DNA of 43,371 bases from Halococcus hamelinensis 100A6 (GTDB lineage: Archaea > Halobacteriota > Halobacteria > Halobacteriales > Halococcaceae): positions 19,848-63,218 of the forward strand of contig NZ_AOMB01000011.1 of the NCBI RefSeq assembly GCF_000336675.1, written 5' to 3'. Of this stretch, positions 1,308 through 35,537 are shown piece by piece. Numbering within the stretch: the first letter of the stretch is position 1; each line of letters begins with the position of its first letter. The notes under the pieces were generated by a model. That model searched no databases. It had not been told where the DNA came from and saw only the letters and a program-made list of their open reading frames with translations. The translations under genes and the position numbers were made by a program.

Positions 1308-2711
1308 GTGCTCGACCTCTCCTCCGAGGAGATAACCCAGGGGTCGCTGACGCGGGCGCTGGTCGTGCTCGCGACCCCGCTGTTGGTCCAGAACCTCGTG
1401 CAGGTCGTCCAGCAGGTGGTCGACCTCTTCTTCCTCGGACGGCTGAGTTCGGCCGCGGTCGCCGCGGTGGGGCTCTCGCTCCCGGTCCTCGCGCTGTGCT
1501 TCGCGCTCGTGATCACGCTCCCGTTCGTCGGCACCCAGATCCTCGTCTCCCAGCGCGTCGGCGGCGAGGACGTCTCCGGGGCACGCCGGGCCGCCGCGAC
1601 CGGGCTCGGGGTCGCGGTGGCGCTCGGGGTCGTCGGGGGGCTCGTCCTCTGGGTCGGGGCGCGCCCGCTCGTCGACCTCCTCACGCGGGTCCAGCCGGGC
1701 GGGGCGAACGTCACGGCGCTCGCGACGGTCTACCTCTCGGTGCTCGCGGTCGGCCTGCCGGCGGCGGCCGCGAGCGACGCGATCGAGGCGGCGTTCGTCG
1801 GCTGGGGCGACTCGCGCGCGCCGCTCTACGTCTCGGTCGCCACGGTCGCCACCAATCTCGTGCTCGACCCGGTCCTGATCTTCGGGCTCGGGCCGGCCCC
1901 CGCGCTCGGGGTAGAGGGCGCGGCGCTCGCGACGGTCGCGGGCTACGTCGCCGGCTTCCTGCTCGCGGCTGGTCTCGCGCTCGCCGGCCGCGACGGCTGG
2001 GTCTACACCCGGGCGACCGCCCGGTTCGAGGCCGACGACCTCCGTGAGCTGTTCGACGTCGGCGCGCCGATCGCCGGACAGGGTGCCGTGCGTCAGGTCG
2101 TTCGGGTCCTGATCGTCACGGTGGCGTTCGCGGCGGGCGGCACGGCAGGGCTCGCGGCGTACTCCATCGGCGGCCGAGTCGCGTCGGTCGCCTTCGTGCC
2201 CGCCCTCGGCCTCCAGCAGGCCGCCCAGAGCGTCGTCGGGCAGAACCTCGGTGCCGCAAAGCCCGACCGTGCCGAACGAGCGACCTATCTCGGTGTCGGG
2301 CTCGCCGCCGGCGGACTCGCGGTCATCGGTGCCGTCCAGTGGCTCTTCCCGGTCCCGGTCGCCACCCTGTTCGCGCCGGCGTTCACCGACCGCGCGCTCT
2401 CGCTTTCGGTCTCGTACCTCGAGATCCTCGCCTACGGCTATCCCGCCATCGGCGTCGCCTACCTCTTCGAGGCGGGCTTCAACGGCGCGCGCCGGACCCG
2501 TACCAGCCTCGTCGCCACGCTCGCCCAGTTCTGGGTCGTTCGGCTTCCGCTCGCCGCGGGCGCGGGGGTCGTGTTGGGGGCCGGCGTCGTCGCGGTGTTC
2601 TGGGCCGTGACGATATCGAACCTCGTCGTCGCCGTCGGTCTCTGGTTCTACTACCGTCGCGAGGTGGGCGACGGGATGCTCCAGCGGGCGAGCGAGCGCG
2701 CCAGCACCTGA
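1308..2711 (+). CDS. MATE-family multidrug/cation exporter
   Basis: A 467-residue polytopic membrane protein. Two homologous halves of hydrophobic segments are evident, starting with a TM segment at about 18-40 that contains the family's typical PLLVQNLVQVVQQVVDLFFL stretch. The second half opens near residue 245 with a similar gate region (GAPIAGQGAVRQVVRVLIV). MATE proteins exchange H+ or Na+ for drugs or organic cations across the cytoplasmic membrane; the substrate cannot be read from sequence. The start is the GTG at 1308, placed about 26 bases after a TATA-like element, so the message is probably leaderless. It is a single gene, divergent from lipA and convergent with the channel gene that follows. 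Confidence 0.9.
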   Translation: MLDLSSEEITQGSLTRALVVLATPLLVQNLVQVVQQVVDLFFLGRLSSAAVAAVGLSLPVLALCFALVITLPFVGTQILVSQRVGGEDVSGARRAAATGLGVAVALGVVGGLVLWVGARPLVDLLTRVQPGGANVTALATVYLSVLAVGLPAAAASDAIEAAFVGWGDSRAPLYVSVATVATNLVLDPVLIFGLGPAPALGVEGAALATVAGYVAGFLLAAGLALAGRDGWVYTRATARFEADDLRELFDVGAPIAGQGAVRQVVRVLIVTVAFAAGGTAGLAAYSIGGRVASVAFVPALGLQQAAQSVVGQNLGAAKPDRAERATYLGVGLAAGGLAVIGAVQWLFPVPVATLFAPAFTDRALSLSVSYLEILAYGYPAIGVAYLFEAGFNGARRTRTSLVATLAQFWVVRLPLAAGAGVVLGAGVVAVFWAVTISNLVVAVGLWFYYRREVGDGMLQRASERAST

Positions 2712-2731: not shown

Positions 2732-4411
2732 TCACTCGTCGGGAAGACGTCGAAGCCGTTCGTCGGTCCCCGCGACGACGAGCGTGTCGCTGTCGGCGAT
2801 CTCGATGGTGTCGTCGGTCAGGAACTCCCCGTCGCGTTCGAGACCCACGCCCACCCACTCCTGGTTGGCGTTCCGCTGGATCTCCCCGAGGTCCTGTCCG
2901 ACGAACTCGTCGCTTTCGACCCTGGCGAACCGTATCTGCCCGATCGGGTGCACCACCGGCTCCCGGTGGGCCTCGGCGGCGAGCAGTCGTGCGATCGTTC
3001 GTCGCTCGGAGAGCACGTAGTCCGCCCCCGCGTCGAACCCCTTCGCCACGTCCTCCGCGTTGGTCACCCGAACCAGGATGTCGATCTCCTCGGCCATCGA
3101 CCGGCCGACCGCCGTGGCGAGCAACGCGGTCTCGTCGTCGTCGACGGCCACGACGAGCGCCGTCGCGTCCTCGATACCGGCCTCCGCGAGCACGGGCCCG
3201 TCGCTCGCGTTCCCCACCACGTCCGCCCCCGTGCTCTCGTCCACGTCGATGGTGGTGACGTCGACCTCGTCCGGGAAGTGTTCCGTGACCGCCGTTCCCG
3301 CCTCGCCGAGTCCGGCGACCACGACACTGTCGTACGTCGTCAGCGACCGGAACCCGTCGTCCTCGTCGTGAATCCCCTCGAAAGCGGCTTCGGGTCCGAC
3401 GACCACGAGCACCGAGTTCGGCGAGAGCCGTTCGGACGACCGGGGTGGAAGCCGTAGCTCACCGTCGATCCACGCTCCGACCAGCGTCAGGTCCGGGTTC
3501 GCCACGATGGGCGTGTCCTCGACCCGCGCCCCGGCGAGCGGTCCGTCGTGGCGGACGACCAGTTCCCGAACCACGGTCCCGTCGCCGATGGCGTCGGCCG
3601 CGGTCGCGAACGTCGCCGTCGCCGTCGCCTTCTCGGCCAACTGGCGGCCGATGAGCGACGGGACGCAGACCACCCGGTCCACCCCGACCTGTTCGAGCGC
3701 GTCCTGCCGGTCGGGGGTTTCGGTGAGCGAGAGCACCCGCACGTCGTCGTTGCACTGGTAAGCCGTCAGCGCGACGCTCGCGTTGCGCGCCCGTGCGTCC
3801 GTGACGACCAACGCCGCGTCCTCGACCCCGGCCCGTCGGAGCGTCTCCGTCCTCGTCGGGTCGCCGTCGATGACCTGGTAGTCGCGGTTCGAGAGGTCGA
3901 TGGCCTCCTCCTTGTCGGGGTCGACCAGGACGTAGTCGATCCCCGAGGCCTCGAACTCGTCGAGCAGCACGTCCTTCCCCCGGCCGTACTCACAGACCAC
4001 GACGTGGTCGTCCTTGGTGGTCAGACGGTCGTCGAGCACCACCGGGGCGCGCTCGAACAGCGGGATGATGAGGATCCGCAGCGTCACGAGCCCGATGAGC
4101 ACGCCGGATATCTGATACCAGATGATGAGGAGGTTCATGTACGGCGTCACCCACGGTGCGCCGGCCCCGTAGCCGGTGGTCGTCATCGTCTCGACCACCG
4201 TCTGGAGCGCACGGAAGATCGTGATGTCGTCGCCTTCGAGGGTCCGCATTCCGGCCTGGTAGATGACGGCGTAGCTGACGAGCACCGAGACGAGCACCAC
4301 GATATACTTCACCACGGTCCGCTGTCGGTTGGTGAGGTCCTCGAGCGAACTCACCGACCGGAGCTGGCGGAGCTGTTGTTCGAGCGGTCCCTGTGGCTTC
4401 TCGGAACTCAT
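2732..4411 (-). CDS. K+ channel-like protein with two RCK (TrkA-N/TrkA-C) modules
   Basis: A 559-residue protein. Order: cytoplasmic N-terminus, TM1 (about 33-56), pore loop with TTTGYGAG (filter core TGYG), TM2 (about 92-118), then RCK1 (TrkA-N about 130-250, TrkA-C about 270-345) and RCK2 (about 360-475 and 480-559). This is the two-TM, MthK-like plan, but with a tandem RCK pair on one chain. The first Rossmann motif is degenerate (VVCEYGRGKD in place of GxGxxG), whereas the second keeps GLGEAG. It probably conducts or regulates K+ for osmotic balance, gated by a nucleotide or ion at RCK2; the ligand is inference. It diverges from the DxDxDG membrane protein at 4500 with an 88-base shared promoter region. 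Confidence 0.9.
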   Translation of the reverse strand: MSSEKPQGPLEQQLRQLRSVSSLEDLTNRQRTVVKYIVVLVSVLVSYAVIYQAGMRTLEGDDITIFRALQTVVETMTTTGYGAGAPWVTPYMNLLIIWYQISGVLIGLVTLRILIIPLFERAPVVLDDRLTTKDDHVVVCEYGRGKDVLLDEFEASGIDYVLVDPDKEEAIDLSNRDYQVIDGDPTRTETLRRAGVEDAALVVTDARARNASVALTAYQCNDDVRVLSLTETPDRQDALEQVGVDRVVCVPSLIGRQLAEKATATATFATAADAIGDGTVVRELVVRHDGPLAGARVEDTPIVANPDLTLVGAWIDGELRLPPRSSERLSPNSVLVVVGPEAAFEGIHDEDDGFRSLTTYDSVVVAGLGEAGTAVTEHFPDEVDVTTIDVDESTGADVVGNASDGPVLAEAGIEDATALVVAVDDDETALLATAVGRSMAEEIDILVRVTNAEDVAKGFDAGADYVLSERRTIARLLAAEAHREPVVHPIGQIRFARVESDEFVGQDLGEIQRNANQEWVGVGLERDGEFLTDDTIEIADSDTLVVAGTDERLRRLPDE

Positions 4412-4499
4412 TCAGTTTGGGTGCTCGCGTGGCCCCCATGAGGCTTTGGCTTGTCCGTGCGGTGGATAGACTGATACCGCTCTCGGCACAATCGCCGCC

Positions 4500-5006
4500 A
4501 TGTCCGCGCCAGTGGCGACCATCACCGACCGCGTCCGCGGGGCTTGGGAGTACTACCGGCGCTACACACTGCGGCGAACGGGCGTCCACGCTGGCGCGAC
4601 GGCGGCGCTCACCGTTCTCGGACTCCTCGCGTACTACGAGCGCTGGTTCGCCCTCGTGGCGATCGTCGCCTACCTGCTCCCACCGGTCTACCTCTATCTC
4701 ACCGGCGACGACCTCTCAGAACCCGAACCCCAACCGACGAACCCCGAACCCGCGACCGCGCCGAACGACCACGCCTCCAGCACCACTGGCGTGGTTCGGG
4801 ACGCCGACGTGGACTTCGACGGAGCCGACGCGGACTTCGACGGAGCCGACGCGGATTCCGATGGCTATGATGCGGACTTCGATGGAGCCGACGCGGATTT
4901 CGACGGGATCGATAGGGACTTCGACGGACACGACGCGGACTCCGACGGCGACACGGATTCGGATGGCGACGACGGGGATACGGACGGCGATTCCGACGGC
5001 GACTGA
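4500..5006 (+). CDS. Small membrane protein with acidic DxDxDG repeat tail
   Basis: A 168-residue protein of unrecognised family. Residues about 28-68 form two adjacent hydrophobic segments, preceded by a basic N-terminus (YYRRYTLRRTG). From about residue 100 to the end the chain is a tandem heptad of the type DADFDGA, decaying into SDGDTDGD. The heptad is encoded by an imperfect 21-bp minisatellite. Each unit fits DxDxDG, the oxygen-rich loop of EF-hand, dockerin and thrombospondin-3 calcium sites. No function is known to me; a divalent-cation-binding tail anchored in the membrane is inference. The nearest neighbour is the divergent potassium-channel gene. The repetitive tail may vary in copy number between strains. 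It could alternatively be simple halophilic acidic low complexity. Confidence 0.75.
   Translation: MSAPVATITDRVRGAWEYYRRYTLRRTGVHAGATAALTVLGLLAYYERWFALVAIVAYLLPPVYLYLTGDDLSEPEPQPTNPEPATAPNDHASSTTGVVRDADVDFDGADADFDGADADSDGYDADFDGADADFDGIDRDFDGHDADSDGDTDSDGDDGDTDGDSDGD
4802..5003 (+). repeat. 21-bp coding minisatellite (DADFDGA units)
   Basis: At least seven tandem units of about 21 bp with core GACTTCGACGGAGCCGACGC. The first two units are identical at most positions and later ones decay. It lies wholly inside the open frame and keeps phase, so length changes would alter the protein tail without frameshift. Confidence 0.85.
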
Positions 5007-5197: not shown

Positions 5198-5229
5198 CAC
5201 GAAACCCACCGCCGGCGGTGGGTTTCGTG
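5198..5229. promoter_or_regulatory. Perfect 32-bp palindrome over the helicase start codon
   Basis: The half site CACGAAACCCACCGCC is followed directly by its exact reverse complement. The right arm contains both candidate GTG starts of the helicase gene (5218, 5227). It could be an operator for a dimeric regulator or, in RNA, a hairpin hiding the start codon. The flank (GCGTTCGCAACGAACGC, 5182-5198) is a second shorter dyad. Confidence 0.8.
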
Positions 5230-7554
5230 AGCGTCGCCGAGACGGTCCCCGAGTTCGCCGACGCGTTCGCCTTCGAGGAGTTCAATCGGATGCAGCGCGA
5301 GGCGTTGCCCGCGATCCTCGAACGCGAGGAGAACGTCGTCGCCAGCGCGCCGACGGCCTCGGGCAAGACCGCCCTCGCCGAGCTCGCGATCTGCAAGTGC
5401 CTCCGGACCGGCGGGACGGCCCTCTTCATCGCGCCGCTGCGCGCGCTCACCAACGAGAAGGAGTCCGAGTGGGAGCGCTTCGAGTCGATGGGCTACTCGG
5501 TCTACGTCGTCACCGGCGAACGCGACCTGGTCCCGCACCGCGCCGAGCGGGCCGACATCCTCGTGATGACCCCCGAGAAGGTCGACTCCGCGACGCGGAA
5601 ACACGACTCCCCCAGATACGGCTTCATCACCGACGTCTCGTGCTGTGTGATCGACGAGGTCCACCTCCTCGACTCCGAGAAACGGGGGAGCGTGCTCGAA
5701 GTCACCATCTCCCGGCTCCGGCGGCTCTGTGACCCCCGCGTGGTGGCGCTCTCGGCCACGATGCCCAACGTGGGCGACATCGCCGACTGGCTCGACGCTC
5801 CCCCCGAGACGACCTTCGACTTCGGCGACGAGTATCGACCCGTCGACCTCGAATCGGGCGTCCGGACCTACACCCACGGCGAGAACGCCTTCGCCGACAA
5901 GTACCGTCGCCTCTATCGCGCGCTCGACCTCGCCGAGGACCACATCCGGGAAGAGGGTCAGGCGCTCGTGTTCGTGGCCTCGCGCCAAGACACCGTTAGG
6001 GCGGCCGAGAAGGCCCGCGACGAACTCGCCTCACGGGACGTGCCGATGGGCGCGCGCGGCGACTACGATTTCCACACCGAAAGCCAGGTCCTCGAGAACC
6101 AGACCCTCCGGAACTCCGTGCTCGACGGCGTGGCCTTCCATCACGCGGGTCTCTCGAAGTCCGATAAGGACCACGTCGAGGAGTGGTTCCGCGAGGGAAA
6201 GGTGCAGCTCCTCTTTTCGACCTCGACGCTCGCGTGGGGGGTGAATTTGCCTGCTCGGTGTGTCGTGATCCGTGATACGAAGTACCACGACCCCCTGGAG
6301 GGGGAAGTCGACATGAGCCCGCTCGACGTGCTCCAGATGCTCGGGCGCGCGGGTCGACCGGGCTACGACGACGCGGGCTACGCCTACGTCGTCTGTGACG
6401 CCGCCGACGCCGACAAGTACCGGAAACTCCTCCGTGACGGCAAGGAGATCGACTCCCACCTCGCCGCGGACCTCGACACCCACCTCAACGCCGAGATCGC
6501 GATGGGCACGATCCGGGACGTGGGCGACGTGATGGACTGGCTCGAAACCACCTTCGGGTTCGTCCGCGCGAAGAACAACCACGTGACCGACGCGGTCGAG
6601 ACCCTCCGCGAGGCGGTCCGTGAGACCCTCTCCGAACTCCGGGACCGTGGGTTCATCGAGACGGACGACCTCGACGTCGCCGCGACGCCGCTCGGCACCC
6701 TGACCTCGTCGTACTACCTCCGGCTGCCGACCGCCCGCCGGTTCTTCGACCTCGCGGGGACCGGCCCCAGTGTTCGAGCGATCCTCGAAACCGTCGCCCG
6801 GAGCACGGAGTTCGACAGCGTCAACGCCCGCCGTGCCGAACGCGACGCCATCGCGGGGGTGCTCGGCTCCGGTGACGACCTCGATTCGGGCCCGCGGAAG
6901 GTGCTCGCGATCCTCGAATCCAGCACCCGTGGCTCGACCCCCGCCGAACTCCGGAGCGACGCGTGGGTCATCCGCCAGAACGCGCTCCGGTTGCTCGCCG
7001 CACTCGGGGCCTTCCTCGACCGTTTCGGGTCGGCCTGGGAGGCCAACCGGGCGTGTCGCGTCGCGGCACGCATCGAGAACGGCGTCGGCGAGGACGCGGC
7101 CGCGCTCACCGCCATCGACGGCGTCGGGCCGGGCCGGGCGAGCAAACTCGCGAGCTCGGGGATCGAGACCCCGGCGGACGTCGTCTCGGCCGGGGTCGAC
7201 GAACTCGTCGAGGTCGGGCTCTCGGAGGGGGTCGCCGAGCGGGTGGTCGAGCGTGCGCGCGCCCTTCCCGCGCTCGACATCGACTGGGGGGCCTTCCCCG
7301 AGCGGATCGCGCGCGGCGAGAACGACCTGTGTGAGGTCACCGTCGAGAACCGGGGCGAGGGTGCGCGGGCCGGCCTCCGGGTGACGGTCAACGACACCCA
7401 GATGACCGAGACCGCGTCGTTTCTGGGGACCGAGACCCTCCCCGCGCCGGTCTTCGGCGGCGACCCCGACACCCTCACGTTCGCCGTCGAGGTCGTCTTT
7501 CCCGACCTGCCGCTCCCGCCAGTTACGGAGACGAGAACCGTCTGGGTGGATTGA
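5227..7554 (+). CDS. Ski2/Hel308-like DEAD-box helicase with Brr2-type C-terminus
   Basis: A 775-residue ATP-dependent superfamily 2 helicase. Walker A APTASGKT is at 41-48, motif II DEVH at 143-146, SAT at 176-178, and motif VI QMLGRAGRPG at about 370-379. After the winged-helix and ratchet region come a helix-hairpin-helix (about 628-680, AIDGVGPGRASKLA) and a C-terminal beta-rich domain (about 690-775). That last order (helical, HhH, Ig-like) is the Sec63 module of Brr2, and goes beyond plain Hel308. The substrate may be stalled replication forks or structured RNA; not decidable here. The start is GTG at 5227 (MSVAETVPEF) or 5218, both inside a palindrome. A dispersed repeat follows the stop. 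Confidence 0.88.
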   Translation: MSVAETVPEFADAFAFEEFNRMQREALPAILEREENVVASAPTASGKTALAELAICKCLRTGGTALFIAPLRALTNEKESEWERFESMGYSVYVVTGERDLVPHRAERADILVMTPEKVDSATRKHDSPRYGFITDVSCCVIDEVHLLDSEKRGSVLEVTISRLRRLCDPRVVALSATMPNVGDIADWLDAPPETTFDFGDEYRPVDLESGVRTYTHGENAFADKYRRLYRALDLAEDHIREEGQALVFVASRQDTVRAAEKARDELASRDVPMGARGDYDFHTESQVLENQTLRNSVLDGVAFHHAGLSKSDKDHVEEWFREGKVQLLFSTSTLAWGVNLPARCVVIRDTKYHDPLEGEVDMSPLDVLQMLGRAGRPGYDDAGYAYVVCDAADADKYRKLLRDGKEIDSHLAADLDTHLNAEIAMGTIRDVGDVMDWLETTFGFVRAKNNHVTDAVETLREAVRETLSELRDRGFIETDDLDVAATPLGTLTSSYYLRLPTARRFFDLAGTGPSVRAILETVARSTEFDSVNARRAERDAIAGVLGSGDDLDSGPRKVLAILESSTRGSTPAELRSDAWVIRQNALRLLAALGAFLDRFGSAWEANRACRVAARIENGVGEDAAALTAIDGVGPGRASKLASSGIETPADVVSAGVDELVEVGLSEGVAERVVERARALPALDIDWGAFPERIARGENDLCEVTVENRGEGARAGLRVTVNDTQMTETASFLGTETLPAPVFGGDPDTLTFAVEVVFPDLPLPPVTETRTVWVD

Positions 7555-7651: not shown

Positions 7652-7880
7652 GAGGGATGAGCACCGGAGTGAGCGAAGCGAACGAGGAGCGCAGTCGGTT
7701 GGGGAGGTATGTGGCTGTCGCGAGGCGGCTGCGGAGCGGGAGGGTTAGTGGTTGTACCGCGAGTGAGGCCGGAGGCCGAACGAGCGGCAGTTTTTAGTCC
7801 AGGTTTTTGCGAGGAGTGGTTCGCCGGAGGCGAACCCGACGAAGTAAAAAAGTGGGGTCCGGTAGCTTCAAACCGTCCCG
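7652..7880 (+). repeat. Dispersed intergenic repeat, copy 2
   Basis: The helicase-phoD gap (7555-7896) holds no gene. The repeat begins with GAGGGATGAG 98 bases after the helicase stop, continues with TCGGTTGGGGAGGTATGTGG (7695-7714), then two T5 tracts in TTTTTAGTCCAGGTTTTTGC (7791-7810), the hairpin GGTTCGCC-GGA-GGCGAACC and an A6 tract. The T tracts would suit archaeal termination of the upstream plus-strand transcript; the A6 would serve the minus strand. Confidence 0.75.
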
Positions 7881-9700: not shown

Positions 9701-10050
9701 GAGGGATGAGTGAGCGACCGGAGGGAGTCGTTCGAAAGGCGCGAAGCGCCTTTCGTGATGACGAAAATCGCGTAGCGATTTTCGAACCACGAACGAATCG
9801 GCTGGGGAGGTGTGTGGGCGGTGCGGGGCGGTCGTGGACTGATTGTGTTCGAACCGCGAACGAGCCATAGGTGAGTGAGCGGCCTTTTTAGTCCAGGTTT
9901 TTGCGAGGAGTGGTGTGTGAGCGCAGCGAACGCACCCGACGAGGAAAAAAGTGGGTGTGGGAGGCTCGTGGCTGTCGCGGGGCGGTCGCGGTGCGGTTTC
10001 TCATTTGTACCAGCGTTCGCAATCGACTTCACGTGCTTCTCAAAACAGAC
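9701..10050 (+). repeat. Dispersed intergenic repeat, copy 3
   Basis: It fills most of the 459-base gap between phoD and the convergent HAD gene, which has no credible ORF. GAGGGATGAG starts 68 bases after the phoD stop. An insertion-like pair of hairpins (9733-9784) follows, then TCGGCTGGGGAGGTGTGTGG (9798-9817), TTTTTAGTCCAGGTTTTTGC (9885-9904), A6 (9944-9950) and GTGGCTGTCGCGG (9968-9980). The last part matches copy 1 beyond its own A6. Confidence 0.75.
9733..9784. repeat. Twin perfect 10-bp hairpins
   Basis: CGAAAGGCGC-GAA-GCGCCTTTCG (9733-9755) and CGAAAATCGC-GTA-GCGATTTTCG (9762-9784) are both perfect stems with 3-base loops, separated by six bases. The outer ends (GTTCGAAA and TTTTCGAAC) can also pair with each other, so a single long hairpin is an alternative fold. 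Confidence 0.85.
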
Positions 10051-34412: not shown

Positions 34413-35537
34413 TCAGTCGTTCTTCAGCTCGTCGACCCAGCCCGGCTGGCCGACGTCGGTCGAGCCGACGCCCGAGAACCGACGGGTGGTCTCGATGGTG
34501 ACGGGCTCGCCGGAGCTGAGGTAGTCAGTGGTCCGGGTGGTCTCGAGGCTCCGAACCACGCCGGTCTCGGGGTTCATCACCAGCGTCGAACCGAAGGCCG
34601 TGACGTCCTCGCCTCGGTAGAGCGCGCCCGAGGTGTCGACGCTGTCGGTCCCGTTGGCGACGTAGACCGCGAGTCGGGTGCCGTCGCGGGTGACGGTGTC
34701 CGAGCGCTCGTAGTCGACCGCGCGGACGGTCTCGTAGACCCGGTTGCTACCGGTGAGGCTTCCCGCCAGCGGCTTGCCGAGCTCCTCGGTCTCGTACTGG
34801 GAGTCGCCCGAGAGCACGTTTCGTTTGTAGGCCGTCGCGCCCTCGGCGTAGGTGTACCGAGTGGCCTCCTCGGTGGGGCTGGAGACCTGATACGCGGTGT
34901 CGGCGTCGAGGTCGACACGCGCGCCGCTCGTCTCGGTCTCGGGACCGTCCGCGGTCGGGTCGCGGAGCGTCGAACTCGCGTTGACCGTGAAGCTCCCGGC
35001 CGACTGCAGCGCGCTCTCGTGGGCGTCGGCGATCGACCTGGCGTCGAGCGGCGGCTCCGGCCCGACGGCGGCTTCGGTCGTCGACGTCGTGTTCTCGGTC
35101 GGTGTCTCGGTTGCCGTCTCGGTGGACGTCGGGGTACCGGTCGCCGTGGTGGTCTCGGTTCCAGTCGATGTGTTGGTCGGTGTCGTCGTTGCCGTCGGTG
35201 TCTCGGTTGGCGTCGGCGTCTCGGTCGCCGGGGTGGTTCCGGCCGGCGTTTCGGTTGCCGTGGCTGTCGTGGCCGAGGTTCGCGTTCCGGTGGCCGTCGC
35301 CGTCCCGTCGGTCGTTTCGCTCGACGTGACGGTCGCGGTCGATACGGCCGTGGTCGGCGCTGCCGTCGACATCGACGTCCCGGTCGCCGTCGCCTTGACG
35401 GCCGTGGCCGTCGGTCCGGGCTCGGAGCCGTTCTCGGTGGGCACGGCGGTCGAGTCCCCACTGTTCGAGAGGCCGCTACAGCCGGCGAGTGCGACGAGCG
35501 CGATGACGACGAGGATGAGGGCCGTTCGTCGTACCAT
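34413..35537 (-). CDS. Haloarchaeal lipoprotein with Thr-rich linker
   Basis: A 374-residue protein with signal peptide and lipobox LAGC (Cys20), so the mature N-terminus is lipid-anchored outside the cell. Residues about 45-160 are a Thr/Glu/Ala/Ser low-complexity stalk, likely O-glycosylated. The C-terminal domain (about 165-374) is beta-rich, with YTYAEGATAYKRNV and TGVVRSLETTR, and resembles haloarchaeal LolA-like lipoproteins in size and layout. Function unknown; binding of a lipid or lipoprotein is possible. It stands alone, divergent from rps6e. Confidence 0.85.
   Translation of the reverse strand: MVRRTALILVVIALVALAGCSGLSNSGDSTAVPTENGSEPGPTATAVKATATGTSMSTAAPTTAVSTATVTSSETTDGTATATGTRTSATTATATETPAGTTPATETPTPTETPTATTTPTNTSTGTETTTATGTPTSTETATETPTENTTSTTEAAVGPEPPLDARSIADAHESALQSAGSFTVNASSTLRDPTADGPETETSGARVDLDADTAYQVSSPTEEATRYTYAEGATAYKRNVLSGDSQYETEELGKPLAGSLTGSNRVYETVRAVDYERSDTVTRDGTRLAVYVANGTDSVDTSGALYRGEDVTAFGSTLVMNPETGVVRSLETTRTTDYLSSGEPVTIETTRRFSGVGSTDVGQPGWVDELKND

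Follow-up and report, generated by a model that had tools for sequence, protein, structure and literature searches.

A small gene whose product combines a membrane hairpin with a repetitive aspartate tail was found in the window (the whole 43,371-nucleotide stretch of DNA analysed here), between a divergently transcribed potassium channel gene and a helicase gene (Table 1). The first residues of the protein were identical in the orthologue from the sister species (genome G006). AlphaFold2, run on 17 sequences, gave three helices in the N-terminal part with pLDDT of about 70-80 and a disordered tail; the model as a whole had a mean pLDDT of 60.6 and a pTM of 0.24 and contains no ions, and only its helices are trustworthy. 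The original prediction, a tail of DxDxDG repeats carried by a two-helix membrane hairpin, was confirmed, with ten units counted. Searched by sequence, the small protein had no match in the PDB (best E 1) or in PHROGs, and its first 70 residues had none among the PLSDB plasmids by tblastn. Neither a signal peptide nor a sortase motif was seen on reading the sequence.

Table 1. Features of the small gene and of its neighbours, in window coordinates.
Feature	Positions	Strand	Basis or remark
Presumed MATE-type transporter gene	1308..2711	+	Directly upstream of the short gene in several channel-less relatives
Two-RCK K+ channel gene, GsuK-like	2732..4411	-	Pfam stretches, PDB match; neighbour, outside the conserved unit
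88-bp divergent intergenic region, channel/small gene	4412..4499	.	Arrangement only in the window genome and sister G006
Small gene, 168 aa, membrane hairpin and Asp-only tail	4500..5006	+	ATG start; stop codon included
N-terminal Arg-rich helix, residues 5-25	4512..4574	+	AlphaFold2 helix
Hairpin helix 1, residues 28-46	4581..4637	+	AlphaFold2; conserved H-A-x-x-x-A-A-L-T
Hairpin helix 2, residues 48-68, invariant Y-x-x-P-P	4641..4703	+	AlphaFold2, alignment of relatives
Variable linker, residues 69-99	4704..4796	+	D and E similar in linkers of relatives (191:148)
Asp-only repeat tail, residues 100-168, ten DxDxDG	4797..5003	+	Repeat count, shuffles
Hel308-like helicase gene	5218..7554	+	Stable family neighbour; start may be 5227

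The divergent gene had been read as encoding a two-RCK channel, and this held: its product carries a TTTGYG filter and two stretches each of TrkA_N and TrkA_C, and its best solved relative is GsuK (4gx5/4gx0, E 1.9e-30, residues 31-512 aligned), with MthK also aligning. The gene at the other end of the channel gene encodes what we take to be a MATE-type transporter. The helicase downstream of the small gene is called Hel308-like because it resembles Hel308 with a score far below the Hel308 cut-offs of NCBIfam. Matches of its orthologues mostly start at codon 4, and its true start may therefore be the GTG at 5227. A perfect 30-base palindrome (ACGAAACCCACCGCC followed by its reverse complement) lies at 5199-5228, at the 5' end of the helicase ORF; the 24-base core of this palindrome has a single copy in the own genome and none in 12 relatives.

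The short gene was present in 11 family genomes (G000-G006, G008, G009, G010 and G011). A tblastn search of their 15-16 kb regions placed the channel beside it in the window and in G006, and in no other of these genomes. In nine other family genomes the order was lipA, the MATE gene (in several), the short gene and the helicase. In G002, G003 and G008 no more than about 60 bp separated the end of the MATE gene from the short gene, and 10 of the 11 genomes had the helicase after the short gene. The region of G011 had no lipA, MATE, channel or helicase neighbour. Neighbours differed from one haloarchaeal family to another, and neither a partner conserved across families nor a calcium-related neighbour common to the families examined was found in a survey that covered 51 of 59 regions, the crude gene caller having missed the hairpin gene in the other 8.

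A profile HMM of the hairpin matched 151 of 392 Halobacteriales genomes, in 45 of 95 genera and in either of two architectures, leaving 241 genomes with no match. When 392 genomes were drawn from the whole phylum, the 24 with a hairpin match all belonged to Halobacteriales, and 27 hairpin loci from the named contig collection bore haloarchaeal names except for one Euryarchaeota MAG. One hairpin relative is plasmid-borne, on an unnamed replicon of Haladaptatus halobius. The hairpin reached the cut-off of no model in Pfam, NCBIfam or PHROGs, and a limited search of the open-paper literature found nothing on the family. The family is restricted to Halobacteriales and apparently undescribed, as far as these databases and this search show.

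The short architecture consists of the hairpin and an Asp tail, and the long one of the hairpin, a mixed acidic linker and a YCF48-like beta-propeller; most family genomes have one of each. In a Pfam scan of three long forms, one scored above the PF23366 and PF14870 cut-offs, one matched PF14870 weakly and one gave no match. The predicted propeller of the long form had most blocks at pLDDT above 90, and its best PDB matches in a fold search included the YCF48 structures 5oj3 and 5ojr, together with designed and WD40 propellers. The long paralogue carries, behind the common hairpin, a propeller of the YCF48/HCF136 type (PF14870; 5oj3, 5ojr) and PF23366 HVO_0234-like type, whereas in the window's short form the propeller is lacking and the hairpin is followed by the Asp tail alone. 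Haloarchaeal hairpin-anchored YCF48-like propellers sharing the membrane anchor of the small protein were also noted at loci L127-L153 (for example, L137 and L151).

Positively charged flanks of membrane helices lie in the cytoplasm according to the positive-inside rule. In the 52 of 58 hairpin proteins that the topology pattern recognised (six were left out), the 20 residues before helix 1 contained on average 3.6 K+R compared to 0.44 in the hairpin turn, and the C-terminal flank averaged 2.0 K+R and 5.0 D+E. With a positive N-terminal flank and a neutral turn, the rule places both ends of the hairpin on the cytoplasmic side. The tail thus probably faces the cytoplasm, with a certainty that the acidic C-terminal flank lowers.

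The 69 residues of the tail comprised 32 Asp, no Glu and 10 DxDxDG units. When all tail residues were shuffled, DxDxDG occurred 1.0 times on average with a maximum of 6 in 20,000 shuffles, compared to the 10 observed. When the Asp positions were held fixed and the other residues were shuffled, the mean was 4.3 and 0 of 2,000 shuffles reached 10. A 30-base codon pattern of the repeat had 8 matches in the whole own genome, 7 inside the small gene and 1 elsewhere. Across all 52 short forms, DxDxDG was counted 208 times, whereas shuffles that held every Asp in place gave 139 on average (sd 8). An Asp stood at loop position 10 after DxDxDG in 170 of 174 cases and at loop position 12 in 169 of the 173 units having that residue (52 short forms).

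In the short-form relatives, the tail cores contained 1258 D and 13 E, compared to 191 D and 148 E in the adjoining linkers (n = 51 of the 58 extracted hairpin proteins, with the seven long forms left out and the window protein not counted; the 58 regions were the analyst's choice from the best matches and not a random sample, and the core was delimited by Asp density, a criterion that permits Glu). An Asp-rich core, 22-99 residues in length, was present in 51 of 51 short forms. DxDxDG was missing from 8 of these 51, whose tails are of the DGDTDSDSD type, which means that conservation does not extend to an EF-like loop. Acidic residues of halophile proteins are usually ascribed to general salt adaptation, Asp and Glu alike. 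A tail with Asp at almost every other position and hardly any Glu, adjoining a linker that contains both, is a clean test, provided by nature, of an Asp-specific role.

Between the window gene and that of the sister species, the 32 aligned Asp codons had 14 silent and 0 replacing changes, compared to 7 silent and 5 replacing changes at the non-Asp positions of the tail. In 12 ortholog pairs, the Asp columns had 85 silent and 16 replacing changes (2 to Glu) and the other columns 74 silent and 98 replacing changes; these pairs were hand-chosen and aligners favour Asp on Asp, making the sister pair the cleaner test. These counts show that the Asp codons of the tail are under strong purifying selection. 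Moreover, silent and non-Asp changes break up the DNA repeat while the Asp stays, indicating that the Asp pattern is kept by selection. On the evidence of the sequences, it is this Asp pattern that is the selected feature, and DxDxDG is not universal in the family.

The repeat had been likened to the calcium-binding loops of EF-hands, dockerins and thrombospondin-3 repeats. A 12-residue loop with acidic residues at positions 1, 3, 5 and 12 was indeed found, an agreement that the repeat itself makes trivially easier to reach. Helices flanking the loop were absent, the tail being helix-free in the AlphaFold2 model (low confidence, no ion). Membership in the three families was rejected, as none of their Pfam or NCBIfam models matched the protein at E up to 1 in a HMMER search, which may suppress low-complexity matches; the sole matches in that range were DUF3742 (0.099) and a ClfB repeat (0.0056), both below cut-off. 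The likeness held for the acidic spacing, and failed for the family models and for the universality of DxDxDG.

A closer comparison is offered by the Dx[DN]xDG motif of Rigden and co-workers, which, according to the available text, needs a further acidic or amide ligand downstream and does not require flanking secondary structure (PMC3123361). The window protein has ten exact copies of the motif, nearly always with D at 10 or 12, so that later Asp residues are potential extra ligands. The known cases are folded proteins with a solved ion site, whereas here the motif recurs about every seven residues in a predicted disordered tail and may be absent from relatives of the window protein. The same text states that the motif arises readily in Asp-rich regular repeats.

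The tail also has the character of an acidic disordered binder, being predicted disordered, densely acidic and richer in Asp than in Glu, with no helix or strand in its modelled part. In its dense negative charge and its Asp over Glu it resembles DSS1, prothymosin alpha and Starmaker; the available text of PMC8391695 describes no two-helix membrane hairpin for these proteins, and the likeness is one of character, with no claim of homology. That text gives a Ca2+ affinity of about 50-130 uM for acidic disordered proteins, and bound Ca2+ falling to one quarter in DSS1 with its acidic residues changed to Glu. It also reports that Starmaker SM4, a plain Asp-Ser repeat peptide, bound less Ca2+ than did peptides containing hydrophobic residues, a finding that speaks against the relatives whose tails read DTDSDSD. 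In the window protein and its sister, the unit contains a Phe (DADFDG), and these two are nearer to the EF-loop-like motifs that PMC8391695 describes. Cation binding by the tail is plausible, and the idea is somewhat strengthened by the keeping of Asp, by the near exclusion of Glu and by the Asp at loop position 12.

We tentatively favour the reading that the small protein is a membrane-tethered, disordered polyaspartate brush that would bind divalent cations at many sites with low affinity, independently of the channel. This reading draws on the selection for Asp over Glu, on the DxDxDG spacing with later Asp, and on the analogy with published acidic disordered proteins; the retention of the gene with the helicase in 10 of 11 family genomes and the spread of the hairpin over 45 of 95 genera also speak for it. 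The protein is the short form of a Halobacteriales-restricted family of membrane anchors, with a three-helix N-terminus and a tight two-helix hairpin both ends of which, by the positive-inside rule, would lie on the cytoplasmic side. The tethered tail would be a weak multi-site binder of Ca2+ in the first place and possibly of Mg2+ or Mn2+, and in the window lineage the DxDFDG units may serve as local EF-loop-like sites. The protein would act with no fixed genomic partner, the K+ channel gene having been placed alongside it in one sublineage. Molar intracellular KCl would weaken electrostatic binding, and this counts against such a binder, as do the lack of a common calcium-related neighbour in the families examined, the 8 of 51 relatives without DxDxDG and the 241 genomes of the order with no hairpin match. 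So read, the tail may be one means by which haloarchaea handle divalent cations at their membrane.

A possible though rather unlikely alternative is that the tail is a polyanionic brush with an electrostatic job, meeting cationic protein or nucleoprotein partners, mimicking nucleic acid, or providing spacing or hydration at the inner membrane. It would account for alternating acidic charge being universal when DxDxDG is not, and it is in keeping with the helicase and, further off, presumably EndA-like and TrpS-like proteins as neighbours in several genomes. However, it leaves the 1258 Asp against 13 Glu unexplained, since the adjoining linkers use both residues.

It is doubtful that the hairpin is inverted, with the tail outside in the brine or cell wall, where it would bind Ca2+ or Mg2+ as a surface or adhesion element, as the Ser-Asp repeats in bacterial adhesins may do. 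The strongly acidic C-terminal flank is unusual for a cytoplasmic flank, and in the available text of PMC3123361 the EF-hands and calcium blades are the only Dx[DN]xDG contexts found in large numbers inside cells. The best NCBIfam match, weak and with the cut-off far above it (ClfB, E 0.0056), was also to an adhesin Ser-Asp repeat; the tail shares low-complexity alternating Asp with the staphylococcal MSCRAMM adhesins, but it forms a free C-terminus, and its relatives all come from haloarchaeal records save the one Euryarchaeota MAG. In contrast, the concentration of K+R ahead of helix 1 relative to the turn predicts both ends inside, as the reading of a cytoplasmic cation-binding tail would have it.

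The original prediction went on to give the small protein an accessory role at the divergent two-RCK channel, that of buffering or sensing cations, which we now regard as very unlikely. In its favour, the 88-bp divergent arrangement was kept in two species. Intracellular Ca2+ closes GsuK with a K1/2 of 197 uM, ADP and NAD+ easing gating, as given in the available text of PMC3510474, and this K1/2 was taken to fall in the range of acidic disordered proteins. A manual mapping of the GsuK Ca2+ site, using an offset of three in residue numbers deduced from matching letters, paired T183, N210, T214, E449, N450 and Q453 with T, S, T, E, D and K in the window channel; T183, T214 and E449 were thus kept and N450 was replaced by Asp, and Ca2+ regulation of this channel is possible. 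The resemblance to GsuK and other two-RCK channels (4gx5; PMC3510474, available text) belongs by sequence to the product of the neighbour gene and not to the small protein, and the link of that gene to the small gene is not conserved. The channel adjoined the short gene in 2 of the 11 family genomes, both from the sister species pair. In G002, a channel orthologue (61% identity) lay on a different contig from the hairpin genes, and G001, where the small gene is present, had no channel match reaching 1e-20. Moreover, channel homologues were found in 381 of 392 genomes of the order and the hairpin in only 151. The small gene therefore occurs in relatives with no channel beside it, the outcome that had been named in advance as refuting the accessory role.

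The channel partnership was rejected on family synteny, on the 58 hairpin regions (15-16 kb each, apart from one of 10 kb) and on a comparison by eye of hairpin and channel coordinates among the matches listed for the order. The original sequence observation is right and goes beyond chance, and the channel story is not supported by the relatives; what remains of the earlier interpretation is putative cation binding, which is plausible. The gene order of the relatives separates a tempting two-gene story from the conserved facts.

Some further proximity of hairpin and channel genes was seen. In the window genome, the long paralogue (G000:C5:22209-22670, L046) lies 2.4 kb from a second two-RCK homologue (G000:C5:18235-19815, 36% identity), and in G006 (C3) the spacing of the long form and second channel equals that of the window genome, so that both hairpin genes are near a channel in both genomes. 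Among the matches listed, the channel was also near the long form in G210 and G340, at about 4.4 kb, which are 2 of the 20 genomes of their genus, and relatives of RCK channels lay inside regions L096 and L122. The rough chance expectation is near 0.015 per genome (about 2 hairpins and 2-3 channels, 10 kb in 3.5-4 Mb), and among the matches listed the proximity beyond the window pair amounts to a weak, post hoc excess over chance. A bolder scheme built on it strikes us as highly improbable: the hairpin proteins would be membrane-tethered cytoplasmic Ca2+ sensors or buffers, both of which were brought near GsuK-like channels in a Halococcus sublineage (the short form at 88 bp, the long form at 2.4 kb), assembling a calcium-controlled K+ leak with the tail setting the Ca2+ seen by the gating ring.

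Hardly credible, finally, is a tail that is the functionless by-product of repeat slippage in GC-rich DNA: the tail DNA does hold tandem 21-base units, their number varies among orthologues, and a single transition turns an Asp codon into a Gly codon, making repeats of this kind easier to form (PMC3123361, available text), but the units diverge at silent and non-Asp sites with Asp kept, the tail is found in 51 of 51 short forms, and GAT makes up 10 of 32 Asp codons in the window tail compared to 10 of 185 in three nearby genes, the only own-genome control for codon use (Fisher P 8e-5).

Other repeats were present in the window. Near-identical dispersed stretches (TTTTTAGTCCAGGTTTTTGCGAGGAGTGGT, GAGTGGTTCGCCGAAGGCGAACCCGACGAGG) were observed at gene borders at 45-81, 7791-7850 and 9885-9950, and at 35080-35403 repeats of 12 and 18 bases, of the GTCTCGGTCGACGTC type, followed one another in a long, separate low-complexity stretch.
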